Virus record (IMG/VR): IMGVR_UViG_3300048687_000085
Span: 1 to 37,813 of that record
Length of the DNA stretch: 37,813 nt
Reading direction: 5' to 3' (one strand)
From: a virus
Shown here: positions 3,027 to 33,446 of the stretch, piece by piece
How the letters are laid out: every line of letters begins with the position of its first letter
How positions within the stretch are numbered: position 1 is the first letter of the stretch
Notes under the pieces: generated by a model
Database searches by the model: none
Told to the model about the DNA's origin: nothing
The model's input: the letters and a program-made list of their open reading frames with translations, nothing else
Program-made: the position numbers and the translations under genes

Positions 3027-3968
3027 ATGTCTCTTGTAGTCTCCAGCACCACAGACAGCCAGGAAGCCGTCAACGCCGCGGCCGGCATCGAAACCGAAGC
3101 ACCGGCAGAGCAGCCTTCGCTTCAGCGCGAGGAGCAGGCAGTCAAAGCGCCAGCGCCGGCCAAGCCCGCGGAGCCTGACGAATCGGAAGAAGAAACCGAA
3201 GAAGAAGGCGACGGCGAGGAGAAGGAAGGCGAGGAAGAGCCGGCCAAGCCGAAACGGACGGGCGGCTTCCAACGCAAGATCGAACGACTGGTGCGCGAGA
3301 ACGAGTACTTAGCTCGCCGCTTCCACGAACTCGCGCAGCAGCAGCGGCAACAACCGCCACCCCCGCAGCAACCGCAACAGCAGCCCGTAGCGCAAGACGG
3401 ACGTCCCCGGCAGGACCAGTTCGATTCCTACGACGAGTACCTCGACAAGCTCACCGATTGGAAGCTCGAGGCACGATTGCAGCAGGAGCACACAGCGCAG
3501 CAGCAGCGGCAACAGGCCGCGCAGCAACAAGAGAGATTAACTGGCTGGCAACAACGTGTTGGCCAATTTAAATCGGAAGCACCGGACTTTGAAGACGTAC
3601 TCGAGTCCGTCGATCACATCAATTTACAGCCAATTTTGCAGCAGGCGATTATGGCGGATGCACTCGGACCGAAGCTGGCCTACGAGCTGGCACGGCGACC
3701 GGAGGACTTCGCCAGGATCGCAAGTCTCGATCCCGTTGGCGCGTTAACCGCGCTGGGCGAATTCAAGGCGAGGCTGGAACCTGCAAAAACGGCAGCTCCG
3801 CAGCAGCACCAAAACGGAGTGAAGCCGGTCAGCCGCGCACCCAACCCGATAAGGCCTGTCGGGCAGGGCGCCGGCGCGACCTCCACCGTTCCCCCGGATC
3901 AGATGCCGCTAGGCGACTACATCCGGTGGCGGGAACGCTCCATGAAAGCAGCGCGGGGAAAACACTAA
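3027..3968 (+). CDS. Scaffolding protein
   Basis: 313 aa, close to P22 gp8 (303 aa), and placed between portal and coat as in P22. The N-terminal 80 residues are highly acidic and disordered (EEETEEEGDGEEKEGEEE). Residues 85-175 are a Gln-rich coiled coil (QQQRQQPPPPQQPQQQ). A basic C-terminus (IRWRERSMKAARGKH) resembles the helix-turn-helix with which scaffolds hold coat protein. It would template procapsid assembly and then leave. GAAGG lies just upstream of the ATG. Assignment rests on position, size and composition, not on a sequence motif. Confidence 0.8.
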   Translation: MSLVVSSTTDSQEAVNAAAGIETEAPAEQPSLQREEQAVKAPAPAKPAEPDESEEETEEEGDGEEKEGEEEPAKPKRTGGFQRKIERLVRENEYLARRFHELAQQQRQQPPPPQQPQQQPVAQDGRPRQDQFDSYDEYLDKLTDWKLEARLQQEHTAQQQRQQAAQQQERLTGWQQRVGQFKSEAPDFEDVLESVDHINLQPILQQAIMADALGPKLAYELARRPEDFARIASLDPVGALTALGEFKARLEPAKTAAPQQHQNGVKPVSRAPNPIRPVGQGAGATSTVPPDQMPLGDYIRWRERSMKAARGKH

Positions 3969-24078: not shown

Positions 24079-24429
24079 TTACCCACAAATACGGGTAGGA
24101 CATTCCATCCACGTTTCGTAACGGTGATTAAAATACCGGATCACGTCGAAGCGATTTAGATTGTGGAATATCCAGAAACGCTTCCCTAGACGATGATGGG
24201 CATCCGCCCGATTCCGGTGATGTCCCGCGCATAAAGCGATTGCTTCGCGATCGTGGCAGCGCACACCGAACCCTCGAGGTCCGACATGCGCTGCTTCGAT
24301 GTAATGCGAGGTGCAACCCGGAACGGCACACGGCTGCGTTCTGACCCAGGCGAGATATTTCGGGTCGAGTTCCCGGCCCCGGTAAGGCTTGATTCCCTTC
24401 CGGCGCATCGGGAGATAACGAGCCAGCAT
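24079..24429 (-). CDS. HNH-type nuclease
   Basis: 116 aa from the ATG at 24429, which overlaps the previous stop (TGATG). It has the features of small phage HNH proteins related to Ref/DUF968: CAVPGC, then EAAHVGPRGFGVRCHDREAI, ALCAGHHRNRADAHHR and LGKRFWIFHN. The two Cys with the later C..H likely bind zinc structurally, and HV/HH residues would form the metal-dependent nuclease site. A possible role is host or recombination DNA cleavage. A longer reading to 24654 overlaps two other genes and is not supported. Confidence 0.8.
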   Translation of the reverse strand: MLARYLPMRRKGIKPYRGRELDPKYLAWVRTQPCAVPGCTSHYIEAAHVGPRGFGVRCHDREAIALCAGHHRNRADAHHRLGKRFWIFHNLNRFDVIRYFNHRYETWMECPTRICG

Positions 24430-24623
24430 CAGGCGGCAACCTTCAACATCAACAGCGCGAGCTCGGTGCGATTCGACGCGCCTGTTTTTGCGAACGCCCG
24501 CTGCAGCATGTTTTTCACGGACTGTTCGCTTATCTCGAGTTGGCCGGCAATCGCTTTGTTGGACATACCTGTGGCGACGAGGGCCGAGATCTCCATCTCC
24601 CGGCCCGTGAGTGTGCGGTTCAT
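24429..24623 (-). CDS. Stand-alone LuxR-type HTH protein
   Basis: 64 aa, consisting of just the GerE/LuxR helix-turn-helix: LTGREMEISALVATGMSNKA, IAGQLEISEQSVKNMLQRAF, AKTGASNRTELALL. The residues expected for this fold (LTxRExE...G.SNKxIA...S.xTVKxH-like) are nearly all present. No sensor or receiver domain exists, so it is a minimal DNA-binding regulator. Its ATG overlaps the upstream stop (ATGA) and its stop overlaps the next start, so it is expressed with the early operon. Confidence 0.85.
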   Translation of the reverse strand: MNRTLTGREMEISALVATGMSNKAIAGQLEISEQSVKNMLQRAFAKTGASNRTELALLMLKVAA

Positions 24624-25150
24624 TTACGAACCACCGAATTACGATCAGACACAAGACGAAGGCCGGGAATCGAGACGCCGTTCTTCAGGTCGATCTTCGC
24701 GATCTGCTTGTCTACGCTCTCGCTGACCGTTGTGCGGATATACTGCGCGGGCACCGCGGCCTGGTTGGTGACCTCCACGCTGGGGGGAAGCTTCCGCAGG
24801 GCGAAGCTATACAGCGATCCTTCGAGCGACTTGCGGCCGGTAGCGTCCATCACGCGCAAGACTGCATTGTCGATCCGTTCCAAAATGGCGTTCGCTCTCC
24901 GGTTGGATTTCTCGAGGAGTTGTACCTGCTTCTTGCGGAGCGCAATGGACATCTCCAAATGGTCCTGAAACTCGCACATCGCGTCGATCTTCGTCATCTG
25001 GCGGGTGAGGGTTTCGAGAATCTCCTGTTCGCATTCGGCGCGAACGTCGGGATCGTCGCACATGTCGATGGTGTCGAGCAGCTCCGTCAGGCGTTCAGTC
25101 AAATCCCAGAGCGACTGCGGACGCATAGTGATTACTGGGGCAACGGCCAT
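24620..25150 (-). CDS. Siphovirus Gp157-like protein
   Basis: 176 aa from the ATG at 25150, overlapping the previous stop (TAATG). Layout fits the Gp157 family: helical N-terminus (SLWDLTERLTELLDTI), a central coiled coil (MSIALRKKQVQLLEKSNRRA), then the hallmark LYSFALRKLPPSVEVTNQAA, VPAQYIRT, KIDLKNGVSIPGLRLV. Gp157 was first described in streptococcal siphophages and linked to phage resistance; it often sits beside recombination genes. Molecular role unknown. An upstream GTG at 25201 is disfavoured because it runs into the neighbour. Confidence 0.85.
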   Translation of the reverse strand: MAVAPVITMRPQSLWDLTERLTELLDTIDMCDDPDVRAECEQEILETLTRQMTKIDAMCEFQDHLEMSIALRKKQVQLLEKSNRRANAILERIDNAVLRVMDATGRKSLEGSLYSFALRKLPPSVEVTNQAAVPAQYIRTTVSESVDKQIAKIDLKNGVSIPGLRLVSDRNSVVRK

Positions 25151-29162: not shown

Positions 29163-29726
29163 TTGGCAAGCAGGCCCACATTTACAGCGGCGAGACGTAA
29201 GCTATTTCTCAAAGCGTACGTGGCATGCGGCACGATCATCGGGGCGGCCCGCGCTATTGGCGTCTCGGACACCCTCCATTTCAAGTGGATGGAGGATCCG
29301 GAGTACGCCGCGGCCTTCGCAGAAGCAGAGAAACAGGCGATCGCGCACCTCGAGACTGAGCTTTTCAATCGCGTCTACGAGGGAACGGAAGAACCAGTCA
29401 TCTACCAGGGCGAATTATGCTACCAGAAGGACGCTAAAGGTAAGCTGACCAACAAGCCCCTGACGATTCGGCGCAAATCCGACACGCTGCTAATCTTTGC
29501 GCTCAAGGGCAAGAAACCGGACGTCTACCGCGATAACTTCAAAGGGGAAATCAGCCTATCCGGAAACGTAAACGCCAACCACAACGTAAACCTGACCAAG
29601 CTACCTGATGGCGATCTCGACCAGCTCATCACGATCCTCCAATCTGCCGCCATTCCTGGGCCTGGACCGGCCGAACGACCTCTTGAAGGCAGCATTACTG
29701 GAGAAGGAGAACCGGGAGAGAAATAA
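29163..29726 (+). CDS. Terminase small subunit
   Basis: 187 aa (P22 gp3: 162 aa). The N-terminal DNA-recognition HTH is visible (RRKLFLKAYVACGTIIGAAR, AIGVSDTLHFKWMEDPEYAA), followed by an oligomerisation region (EKQAIAHLETELFNRVYEGT). The KGKKPDVYRDNF segment is typical of this family. It selects phage DNA and loads the large subunit. The terL reading frame starts inside it and overlaps by 119 nt. The start is a TTG in good family register. Confidence 0.85.
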   Translation: MASRPTFTAARRKLFLKAYVACGTIIGAARAIGVSDTLHFKWMEDPEYAAAFAEAEKQAIAHLETELFNRVYEGTEEPVIYQGELCYQKDAKGKLTNKPLTIRRKSDTLLIFALKGKKPDVYRDNFKGEISLSGNVNANHNVNLTKLPDGDLDQLITILQSAAIPGPGPAERPLEGSITGEGEPGEK

Positions 29727-30351
29727 GATAGCTCGATTCTTTCCACTGGAAGGGAAATTCCGCCGGGAACTGTACAAACCGCACCTCGAGTTCTTCGCCG
29801 CTGGCGCCCGCTACCGAACCCGGGTGTTTCTTGCAGGCAACCGGACGGGAAAAACTATAGCAGGTGCCTACGAGCTGACATTACATTTGACAGGCGTGTA
29901 CCCGCAATGGTGGGAAGGCAAACGGTTTAGCCATCCGATCCGAGCGGTAGCCGCCTCGGACACGGGTAAGACAACTCGTGAGGTTGTCCAGCAGGAGTTG
30001 TTAGGACAGCCTGGAAGATTCGGCACGGGTATGGTGCCTTACGATCTTCTGGAGAAATCGACCATGCGCTCGGGCGTGACGGATGCGGTCGACACCTGTT
30101 ATATCAAGCACGCGGCCGGCGGATTCAGCACGCTGATTTTCAAGTCGTACGAGCAGAAACGTGAGTCCTTCCAAGGGCTTAGCCTGGAGTTCGGGTGGCT
30201 GGACGAAGAGTGCCCGGAGCAGATATTCGACGAGACGCTCACTCGTATGGCAACTACCGGGGGCTGTTTGGCGCTAACCTTCACCCCGCTTCAGGGGTTG
30301 ACGCCATTGATCCAGCGCTTCCTGCCCGGCGGGATTTCGACGGCGGATTAG
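29608..30351 (+). pseudogene. Terminase large subunit, N-terminal ATPase half (split terL)
   Basis: 247 codons holding the packaging ATPase: N-terminal family motif FLGLDRPNDLLKAALLEKEN, Walker A GNRTGKT (about residue 77), Walker B FGWLDEECPEQ (about 197) and coupling motif LALTFTPLQGLTPLI (about 224). After FLPGG (about 30336) the frame leaves the family and stops. The nuclease half resumes at 31037. Joining FLPGG to the downstream QVMEALKGNAW gives about 499 aa, the length of P22 gp2, with the usual spacing. Whether this is a broken gene, a spliced gene or two working subunits is open. Confidence 0.85.
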
Positions 30352-30591
30352 CACCTCGTAATCCTCGGGTATACCTAAGGCTCGGCATAAGGCTAGCTCA
30401 AATACCCTGACGATCTCGGGCCGTCCCGCTATCTTCATGTAGGCATAGGCGGCTTTCGCATCGGGGTGATTTACGAGTCCGCTCTCATAGTTGCGGAGCG
30501 CGGCCAAACTCAACCCCAGATAGCTAGCCATGGCTTGCTGGCTCAGGCGCAGCGCGGCGCGCAATTCGCGCGCGGCTTGTTGGAATGTCAT
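30274..30591 (-). CDS. HTH protein inserted in terL
   Basis: 105 aa, antisense to terL. Residues 10-36 are an XRE-type HTH (LRLSQQAMASYLGLSLAALR, NYESGLV), followed by AYMKIAGRPEIVRVFELALC and a short tail. The last 26 residues overlap the terL ATPase frame on the other strand, so its original C-terminus was probably overwritten at the junction. It is the only recognisable cargo of the insertion. CATGGAAG repeats flank its start (30589, 30621) and could be its operators. Confidence 0.7.
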   Translation of the reverse strand: MTFQQAARELRAALRLSQQAMASYLGLSLAALRNYESGLVNHPDAKAAYAYMKIAGRPEIVRVFELALCRALGIPEDYEVLIRRRNPAGQEALDQWRQPLKRGEG

Positions 30592-30621
30592 GGAAGACAG
30601 TGTACTTAGTGGTGCTACGAC

Positions 30622-30660
30622 ATGGAAGTCTTAAACGGCAACGCCTGGTTGACGATGTGT
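30622..30660 (+). pseudogene. Extra copy of a terL segment
   Basis: Thirteen codons read MEVLNGNAWLTMC, against MEALKGNAWITLC at 31046-31084 where the nuclease half begins. The protein match is strong, but the DNA differs at many third positions, so this came from a diverged terminase, not a recent local duplication. Upstream in frame is a stop 15 nt away; downstream the similarity ends abruptly. Confidence 0.7.
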
Positions 30661-30701
30661 GTAAGCTACCGCGTGCCTAAAGGCAGCGGCTTTTAACTGA
30701 T

Positions 30702-31058
30702 ATGCAGATTACTCCACACATCGCTAAGGCGGGTGTTGTCACCCTCGGCCAGCTTACAGGTGGCCCTACCGTTATTCACGGCAGCGAAAGCTTAAAAGAA
30801 ATGCGAAACAACGAGCCCAACCGTTTACCCGTTGCGGGGTGCCTTCAGCTCACTTCCAAGTATCTGGCAAACTCCGATCCGAGACAAGACACAGCGGTAC
30901 CGGTACGGCGGGGCGCTTCCTCCGCATGGCTGAAGCCAACGGTTTCCGCGCCAGAGTTTTTATGTAATCTCGCTCTCGGCAATATTAAAGAGAATGCCGA
31001 ACGTGCTCGCAAATTAGCTGAGTACATCGAGGTTCATTGCAAGTTATGGAAGCCTTGA
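30702..31058 (+). CDS. Unrecognised open frame within the terL insertion
   Basis: 118 aa: MQITPHIAKAGVVTLGQLTG, a Pro/Arg-rich middle and a helical end (NIKENAERARKLAEYIEVHC). It runs 12 nt past the point where terL resumes. The underlying sequence also folds into successive short hairpins (GGGTG..CACCC near 30730, GGCCA..TGGCC near 30747, CCGT..ACGG near 30768), so it may be RNA rather than coding. No homing endonuclease motif seen. Confidence 0.3.
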   Translation: MQITPHIAKAGVVTLGQLTGGPTVIHGSESLKEMRNNEPNRLPVAGCLQLTSKYLANSDPRQDTAVPVRRGASSAWLKPTVSAPEFLCNLALGNIKENAERARKLAEYIEVHCKLWKP

Positions 31059-31804
31059 AGGGAAATGCGTGGATTACCCTTTGTACTTGGGACCAGATAC
31101 CTCATCTGGATGAAGAGGCAAAAGCCACCCTCCTTAGCAGCTACCCGGATTACCAGCGTGACGCCAGGTCGAAGGGTGTACCGAGCCTCGGTTCAGGAGC
31201 GATCTACAAAGTCGCGGAGTCCGAGATCACGATCGACGATATCCCCATCCCGGCCCACTGGCCGAGAGCGTACGGATTCGACGTCGGGTGGAGATGGAGT
31301 GCCGCGGTATGGGGAGCCCTCGACCGCGACAACGACACGCTGTACGTCACCGCGGAGCACTACCGTTCGGAAAGCGAGCCGGTGATCCACGCAGAAGCCA
31401 TCAAGGCACGAGGAGCGTGGATCAAGGGAGCGATAGACCCGGCAGCTCGGGGACGCGGCCAGATCGACGGGCGGAACCTGCTGGACATGTATAGGGATCT
31501 CGGACTCGACCTTGTGCCCGCGGAGAACAGCGTCGAAACCGGAATCTACGAACTCCTGATGCGGATGACCAGCGGCCGCCTGAAGATCTTCAAGTCCTGC
31601 CAGAACCTGCTGGCCGAGTACAGATTGTATAGAAGGGATGAGCGTGGCCGGATCGTGAAAGAGCGCGATCATGCTCTGGATGCACTGAGGTACATGCACG
31701 GCCATTTTATAGAGATCTGCGCCACCCAGCCGGCCCCCCAGAAGGAGAAGCCGGTCTCGGCCTGGGCCTCAGCGGGTAGCTTTAGTACCGGATGGATGGG
31801 GTAG
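31037..31804 (+). pseudogene. Terminase large subunit, C-terminal nuclease half (split terL)
   Basis: 255 aa from TTG 31037 (or ATG 31046). It starts at the end of the ATPase linker (TWDQIPHLDEEAKATLLSSY, then RDARSKGVPSLGSGAIYKV) and holds the whole RNase H-like nuclease: acidic residues in YGFDVGWRWSA (about 88), IDPAARGRGQIDG (about 133) and ERDHALDALRYM (about 214). All three catalytic Asp are present, so selection has kept the domain. No strong Shine-Dalgarno precedes the start. The protein would be the headful nuclease, if made. Confidence 0.85.
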
Positions 31805-31835: not shown

Positions 31836-31905
31836 TACGTCGGGCCTGGTTACGTCGGGTCGGGTGACGCGAGGTAAGGTGGCGCAGGGTGACGTCAGGT
31901 AAGGG
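31836..31905. repeat. Degenerate 5-nt periodic repeat, left block
   Basis: About 14 pentamers of the form N-G/C-G-T/C-N in unbroken 5-nt register (aggtt acgtc gggcc tggtt, then acgtc gggtc gggtg acgcg). It ends in aggtaaggg, which can act as the Shine-Dalgarno of the gene at 31927. Confidence 0.8.
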
Positions 31906-31926
31906 TAATGTGATATAACACTGCCG

Positions 31927-32493: not shown

Positions 32494-32501
32494 GTGTTGC
32501 T

Positions 32502-32918
32502 TAGGTCAGGCAAGGCCAGGTGTGGCAGCGTGACGTTTGGCAGGGTGCGGTAAGGTAAGGATTCTACGGTGCGGTGCTGTTACGCGACGTGCGTTAAGTT
32601 AACGCCGGGTTTGGTGGCGTCTGGTCCAGCAACGTAAGGTAAGGGATTTTGTGGTCCGGTGACGTGTGGCGAGGTGGCGTGAGCCTAGGTGTCGTGAGGT
32701 AAGGTGGCGTCTCGTAAGGTAAGGGATTTATGGTGTGGTGCGGCGCGGTCGCGTCAGATACGGTAGGGCTTGGTCGGGTCTGGTGCGGTAAGGTAAGGGA
32801 TTTTCTGGTGTGGTCCGGTGACGTGAGACTGGGCAAGGTCGGGTACGACACGGTGTGGTGAGGTATGGCTAGGTGTCGTCGGGTCTCGCTGGTCGGGTTT
32901 GGTCCGGCAAGTTAAGGT
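32502..32918. repeat. Degenerate 5-nt periodic repeat, right block
   Basis: About 80 pentamers of the form NNG(T/C)N, typically GGT-centred, with few register slips. A longer word, GGTAAGGTAAGG then GATTT, recurs about every 80 nt (near 32549, 32634, 32715 and 32788), and a final TTAAGGTAAGGG lies 1 nt before the ATG at 32925. The opposite strand is open for 85 codons as a Ser/Thr/Pro/His-rich peptide, which the periodicity alone explains. No gene is believed here. Confidence 0.85.
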
Positions 32919-32924
32919 AAGGGC

Positions 32925-33446
32925 ATGCAATTTGAGATCAAGCGGTACCCCCAATGGAAACAACTCTATGACGCAGCTACTCCCCTGATCGAAGAGGGGA
33001 TGCGGCAGTTCACCTACGAGGAGCTGTCGAACCTCGCTGGCATGGATATCACCTCCGACGCCGGCCGGTCGCAGTTCTACCGTTTCCGCAAGACGCTCCT
33101 GCGAGAGAAAGCCTTGTGGATGGAGAACGACGTTAAAAAAGGCTACAGCGTGATTGCGGCCAAGGATCAGTCCACATCCGCCTATAAGCGGGTCCGTGCG
33201 GCGAAACGAAAGATCGGCATGGCTACGGCAATCAATTCGTACGTTCGGGCCGAAGACCTGACGCCGGAGCAGCGCTGCATGCAAGCGGCTACCGCGGTAG
33301 TGCTCCATGAGCTCGGCAAGGCGTTCGTGACCACAGGCAAAAAGCTCACGATTGTCGCGAAAGAGATGGGCAAGGTGGACGTGGACCTCGACAAGCTGGT
33401 CGAGTCCATCTCGGGTAAGCCGAGTAAGACTCTGAAGTCCGCCTAA
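32925..33446 (+). CDS. Unknown protein after the pentamer repeat
   Basis: 173 aa. The N-terminal half is helical with a possible winged-helix (MRQFTYEELSNLAGMDITSD, GRSQFYRFRKTLLREKALWM), then a basic linker (AYKRVRAAKRKIGMATAINS) and a helical end (CMQAATAVVLHELGKAF, LTIVAKEMGKVDVDLDKLVE). No family recognised. The ATG lies right behind the last repeat unit TAAGGTAAGGGC, which is its Shine-Dalgarno. Confidence 0.62.
   Translation: MQFEIKRYPQWKQLYDAATPLIEEGMRQFTYEELSNLAGMDITSDAGRSQFYRFRKTLLREKALWMENDVKKGYSVIAAKDQSTSAYKRVRAAKRKIGMATAINSYVRAEDLTPEQRCMQAATAVVLHELGKAFVTTGKKLTIVAKEMGKVDVDLDKLVESISGKPSKTLKSA

Follow-up and report, generated by a model that had tools for sequence, protein, structure and literature searches.

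The large terminase gene (terL) in the 37,813-nt stretch of viral DNA analysed here (the window) is present as two genes, TerL-N and TerL-C, and the insert between them repeats the start of TerL-C in diverged form. The arrangement is probably the result of the entry of a foreign endonuclease VII (EndoVII)-type homing endonuclease gene (HEG) together with its TerL-C flank, which stranded the native TerL-C start upstream. The features of the region are collected in Table 1.

Table 1. Features of the split terL region, with positions in the window.
Feature	Position	Strand	Evidence
TerL-N cistron, most of the Terminase_6N ATPase domain, ending GLTPLIQRFLPGGISTAD and stop	29608-30351	+	Pfam Terminase_6N 9.7e-16; 91% amino acid identity to L002 TerL-N; dN 0.054, dS 1.63
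HTH_3 (XRE) gene, ATG at 30591, coding to about 30352	30352-30609	-	Pfam HTH_3 4.3e-8; boundaries inferred from flanks
Copy 1, putative native TerL-C start remnant, codons 1-13 (MEVLNGNAWLTMC)	30622-30660	+	74% nt identity to L002; dS 1.58; shuffles
Dispersed repeat of about 300 nt with hairpin ends	30661-30961		73-75% identity to L112/L113, sharp ends; one end 86% identical to the TnpB-side end in P1312
3' tail of EndoVII-like gene (CNLALGNIKENAERARKLAEYIEVHCKLWKP and stop), stop overlapping the TerL-C start	30962-31058	+	phrog_2914 0.0018; PF02945 0.033; position as in L014
Copy 2, putative foreign 5' segment of TerL-C (MEALKGNAWITLCTWDQIPHLDEEAKAT)	31046-31129	+	51% nt identity to L002, 91% just 3'; dN 0.49 vs 0.019
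TerL-C cistron, last part of the ATPase domain and RNase-H nuclease (Terminase_6C)	31046-31804	+	Terminase_6C 7e-12; Terminase_6N 164-214; 91% nt identity to L002 from 31130

The division of terL is apparent from the Pfam matches of two open reading frames (ORFs) that lie in different frames. The upstream ORF, whose true start is uncertain (homology is from near 29680), matches Terminase_6N positions 2-151 and stops at 30351, and the downstream ORF (31037/31046-31804) accounts for Terminase_6N positions 164-214 together with Terminase_6C. The first-pass annotation had placed the second terL segment inside an insertion; the segment does lie within the insert, but the insert separates two cistrons and does not interrupt one reading frame. 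The nearest relative, L002 (IMGVR 3300018073_000349; 92% amino acid identity in TerL-C), is split alike without an insert, its TerL-N stop TAA being followed after 11 nt by the TerL-C ATG (MEVLNGNAYLVMC / MEVLNGNAYLVMCDWDAVPHL), and in two further loci the stop and start overlap (ATGA in L011, TAATG in L020). In L017, a more distant relative, and in L022, terL is one continuous gene across the split point (LPGGVAT/VEALGG, the slash marking the split; LTPLIQRFLPGGVATVEALGGTAHVTTCTWDEIPHL), whereas the window and L002 carry two ORFs cut at the same residue, between GG(I/V)(S/A)T and (M/V)EAL. When the L017 protein was modelled with AlphaFold (mean pLDDT 89.6), this point fell in a low-confidence loop (residues 230-239) just before a strand (240-245), and between residues 20 and 470 no stretch had lower confidence than this loop; the position of the point in the model would place the split inside the ATPase domain, with TerL-C predicted to contribute one strand of that domain. 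Relative to L002 dN/dS is about 0.03 and 0.04 for the two halves, indicating that both are conserved and under constraint. Presumably two polypeptides, with TerL-C translated from its own ATG, come together in trans as the working terminase.

That the insert is instead part of an intron or intein, so that TerL is made whole by splicing, is the least probable of the alternatives considered. Introns in terL are known (ICP1, PMC10448857; proposed for phD2B, PMC4246154), but the overlapping stops and starts of L011 and L020 leave no room for one, and in L014 it is the stop of a nuclease gene that overlaps the TerL-C ATG. No group I or group II ribozyme core was found in the insert, Rfam returning no match at E up to 5 in the window region and none at E up to 1 in the insert-bearing relatives, and neither half has an intein-like extension, the halves ending at a stop or beginning at an ATG with no extra domain. 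A programmed -1 frameshift joining the halves, considered for the shift of frame in L002, was rejected on the plain stop/start overlaps of L011 and L020 and the 0.7 kb insert of the window. An assembly error is an unlikely cause of the split, given how many unrelated contigs share it, with nuclease genes between the halves.

Directly 3' of TerL-C, arrays of short-word repeats occur in the window (31850-31920 and 32500-32930), in L002 (4763-5278) and in L003 (4754-5340). The L002 and L003 arrays are built of units of about 18 nt, each a 10-nt word (GAGCGAGCCG / GAGAGTACCG) plus about 8 variable nt, and those of the window use other G/T-rich words (GGTAAGG, GGTGACGT); the place is common to the three loci while the words differ.

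The first 13 codons of TerL-C are found twice in the window, as copy 1 (Table 1) and as the beginning of copy 2 (31046-31084, MEALKGNAWITLC), the two agreeing at 28 of 39 nt and at 9 of 13 residues. When the insert (30352-31036) was searched in six frames with the TerL-C start, the best score was 59-60, which none of 1000 dinucleotide shuffles of the insert reached (mean 14-15, maximum 33), and the L002 TerL-C start matched the insert by tblastn with E = 3.6e-5. The resemblance between 30622 and 31046 that the first-pass annotation had pointed out is thereby confirmed far above chance as a diverged second copy of the TerL-C gene start, and on the question of whether 30622-30660 is closest to terminase sequences the answer is yes, copy 1 matching the L002 TerL-C start. 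The short words that had been listed alongside it, at 30589, 30621 and 31045, hold in part: CATGGAAG is exact only at the first two positions and 31045 reads TATGGAAG. The word at 30589 belongs to no terL copy and coincides in part with the start of the antisense HTH gene, and the window contains ATGGAAG 8 times. As repeat boundaries these words were rejected, being chance-level words of which one in three is inexact.

Copy 1 appears to be the native TerL-C start and copy 2 a foreign replacement with a hybrid junction at about 31130, because the dS of copy 1 to L002 equals that of TerL-N and identity to L002 steps sharply within TerL-C, from 51% over its first 84 nt to 91% from 31130, with dN of 0.49 and 0.019 on the two sides of this mosaic boundary. 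The displaced end that has been kept is closer to the relative than the end that replaced it (74% versus 62% identity to L002, over the just 39 nt of copy 1). The first-pass annotation had supposed that DNA of another phage's terminase was present; one copy does seem to be foreign, but it is the downstream segment 31046-31129 and not the segment at 30622. No donor with the copy 2 sequence (MEALKGNAWITLCTWDQIPHL) was found among the collections searched.

A reverse polarity, with copy 2 native and copy 1 incoming (with TerL-N or with the HTH insert), or with the start replaced in L002, is unlikely. Both copies are only moderately like other TerL-C starts, and over 84 nt the copy 2 segment is slightly nearer to L017 (57%) than to L002 (51%), as such a polarity would allow; copy 1 nevertheless matches L002 in sequence, in its place after TerL-N and in dS, and only copy 2 lies between a nuclease remnant and the sharp step at 31130. 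We give very little credence to the idea that the TerL-C start was duplicated in tandem in this genome and that the dead copy then diverged. A duplication of about 40 nt would also produce two copies in the same orientation, but it is the supposedly dead copy 1 that lies nearer to L002, the living copy 2 being more remote, and within TerL-C the departure from L002 is confined to copy 2 and the 45 nt after it.

With copy 1 read as native and copy 2 as foreign, the companion of the foreign segment is probably the tail of the EndoVII-like gene and not the HTH gene, with which it had been associated in the earlier reading. Residues 88-112 of the ORF at 30702-31058 match endonuclease VII (phrog_2914, E = 0.0018), and PF02945 against the tail alone gave 0.033, below its cut-off; the remnant comprises the last ~33 codons of the gene, and its identification from ~25 residues would by itself be weak. 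L014 has an intact 304-aa EndoVII gene (PF02945, 3.4e-21) between TerL-N and TerL-C with its stop overlapping the TerL-C ATG (TAATG), and the tail in the window has the matching place and orientation. Where the window retains the tail, nuclease genes are intact at the split in L014, L018, L019, L032, L048 and L079. The gene is a candidate HEG by sequence, and its nuclease activity here is putative.

Elsewhere in the window (24079-24654, minus strand) there is another HNH-endonuclease-like gene (phrog_96, 1.6e-7). A leader of ~80 nt is alike before the nuclease genes of L014 (2007-2089), L019 (1108-1190) and L021 (1-82), the latter two as judged by eye, and the nuclease genes of these three loci have a common N-terminal zinc-finger module and differing nuclease domains, which suggests domain swapping among the HEGs.

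The HTH gene follows the TerL-N stop and precedes copy 1, and TTAG is found at both of its ends (30348-30351 and 30606-30609). Its open frame continues to 30274 within TerL-N, so that the last 25 codons are antisense TerL-N, and a promoter and terminator scan of the insert found none. That an HTH element brought the terL piece with it to restore or guide integration, as had been proposed, is highly unlikely: the HTH gene adjoins copy 1, and antisense XRE genes stand at the matching terL site in L165 and L166, but these are unrelated to it, copy 1 is apparently native, the foreign segment adjoins the nuclease tail, and searches of viral, phage, plasmid and genome collections detected no relative of the HTH protein. 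The expectation of an HTH gene near terL elsewhere is thus borne out for the gene type and not for this gene itself. The XRE genes between the terL halves lie at 6240-8121 in L165, where a HipA-like frame follows (by eye), and at 5901-6509 in L166.

The repeat at 30661-30961 is not terminase sequence. Copies with exactly matching ends are found in L112 (also L115 and L116) and in L113, at unrelated intergenic places and each directly 5' of an ATG; excision from L112 in silico gives a 134-codon frame whose end, AAATGA, overlaps the next ATG. Read on the minus strand, the repeat begins after CAT and ends TTAC, with TTAC at both ends, and one hairpin end is similar over 44 nt to the end beside the TnpB gene of Thermobifida phage P1312 (Table 1). 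Like IS200/IS605 elements, it is found with exact ends and no target duplication, here at three unrelated sites, but it contains no transposase or TnpB gene. It is possibly a non-autonomous member of this family, with putative mobility; a full-length parent was not found. The repeat opens with a VS(N/Y)RVPKGSG(L/F) frame ending at a stop (window, L112, L113, L115, L116; metagenomic phage contigs). A tRNA or tmRNA in the repeat, considered for a T-arm-like stretch in L112, was dismissed, as ARAGORN found none.

The repeat exactly separates copy 1 from the nuclease tail, so that the first junction between them is not directly readable; without it, copy 1 abuts the tail directly. The repeat and the HTH gene are insertions separate from the arrival of the nuclease and copy 2. 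The earlier suggestion of a mobile element accompanying foreign terminase DNA, or of stacked recombination events, holds in that several insertions are stacked at this site and a mobile-element remnant accompanies the foreign copy.

The terL gene was most likely split first by HEGs settling at the split point. An EndoVII-type HEG from between TerL-N and TerL-C of another phage would then have entered with its downstream flank, the nuclease cutting at or near the TerL-N/TerL-C boundary and the break being repaired from the HEG-carrying phage through one homologous and one illegitimate junction. On the right side a homologous crossover at about 31130 would have yielded a TerL-C with foreign first 28 codons, while on the left side an illegitimate join after native TerL-C codon 13 would have left the dead 39-nt remnant (copy 1) upstream. 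The nuclease gene would have decayed to its last ~33 codons, the ~300-nt repeat would later have been placed at the copy 1/nuclease junction, and the HTH gene would have entered the interval from the TerL-N stop to copy 1. We infer both nuclease cutting as the driver of transfer and this order of events from the arrangement of the sequences.

A mirror case is found in L019, where a complete TerL-N is followed by an EndoVII gene that has a second, diverged TerL-N tail (FTPLQGLSSVVLSFLPDGLPGG and stop; E = 5e-11) fused to its 3' end, then by several ORFs and TerL-C. Identity to the sister locus L020 is 78% for the second tail and 68% for the first. Among the insert-bearing loci, a second terL piece occurs in the window and L019 alone, and in both the nuclease seems to have been joined on one side by homology and on the other illegitimately, leaving a native remnant. 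Recombination at the terL site of the window occurred more than once, because TerL-C beyond 31130 (dS 0.44 to L002, against 1.6 for TerL-N) and a patch of TerL-N at 30079-30240 (83-98% identical to L002 per 42-nt step, with surroundings at 67-79%) are closer to L002 than the rest; the patch is what a conversion tract close to the split site would look like.

Split terL genes recur among the sampled relatives. A TerL-C scan gave 86 loci (67 continuous, 14 split with an insert of at least 100 nt, 5 split without) and a TerL-N scan 71 (47 continuous, 18 split with an insert, 6 without), so that 19/86 and 24/71, or about a quarter, are split; these are counts of loci and not of independent phages, some contigs recurring within or between sets. 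Only 1 of 16 genome-derived relatives is split, and the split state therefore appears rarer outside IMG/VR. A tree of 57 TerL proteins has 8 changes between split and continuous states, at least 4 of them forced by well-supported branches, gain and loss of the split not being distinguishable in this tree. The inserts carry, among others, EndoVII genes (L014, L019), HNH_3/AP2 genes (L032, L048), an HNH gene (L079) and a weakly matching HNH_4-like gene (L018). The L003 insert has an antisense zinc-finger/HNH-like gene without a Pfam hit that is similar to the L018 protein, and a related partial gene is present in L021. In L039 a Tad2-like (Thoeris anti-defence) gene lies between the terL halves (3292-3747; Pfam 1.4e-23).

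More tentatively, the TerL ATPase core may be recurrently broken at one loop, the gap serving as a standing landing site for nucleases and cargo (anti-defence Tad2-like, XRE and others); nucleases there might spread with replacement of either terL flank (the TerL-C start in the window, the TerL-N end in L019), such that homing shuffles motor halves between phages. TerL is a very strong DNA-translocating motor that is normally one chain, and a lineage with a two-cistron ATPase core, probably made by homing nucleases several times, would offer a natural test of a two-polypeptide motor. If this is true, it would also add to the cases of homing nucleases that replace parts of the gene they invade, best described so far in fungal mitochondria. 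A literature search of partial coverage returned no report of a recurrent two-cistron terL at one site or of target-replacing HEGs in terL.

Related arrangements are known from several systems. In ICP1 the large-terminase gene is likewise interrupted with an HEG nearby, a terL intron with a neighbouring T5orf172 HEG, but there the exons are joined by RNA splicing, as seen by RNA-seq (PMC10448857). Lelliottia phage phD2B and phage K1E have terL as two ORFs around a homing nuclease, for which an intron was assumed (PMC4246154); the ORF layout is comparable, whereas no intron is detectable here and some of the stops and starts overlap. Free-standing HNH-type nuclease genes split essential phage genes in Aeh1 (mobE in nrdA) and T4 (mobA in gene 60) (PMC2988022), where, as for terL, two reading frames are both conserved; the present case differs in its target, in the several nuclease families and non-nuclease cargo found at one point, and in the persistence of the split without a nuclease (L002, L011, L020). 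The closest described analogue of copy 1 and copy 2 is found in fungal mitochondrial gene hybrids (Allomyces macrogynus atp6; Glomus atp6, atp9, cox2 and nad3), in which a nuclease ORF brings a foreign gene end and the native end stays as a diverged duplicate (PMC3630166). As in the window, a foreign end of the host gene replaces the native one and the duplicate better matches close relatives, but in the fungal hybrids it is the 3' end, upstream of the nuclease, that is exchanged, whereas the window has the 5' end of a second cistron exchanged, downstream of a putative nuclease reduced to a short remnant, in a gene for phage packaging.
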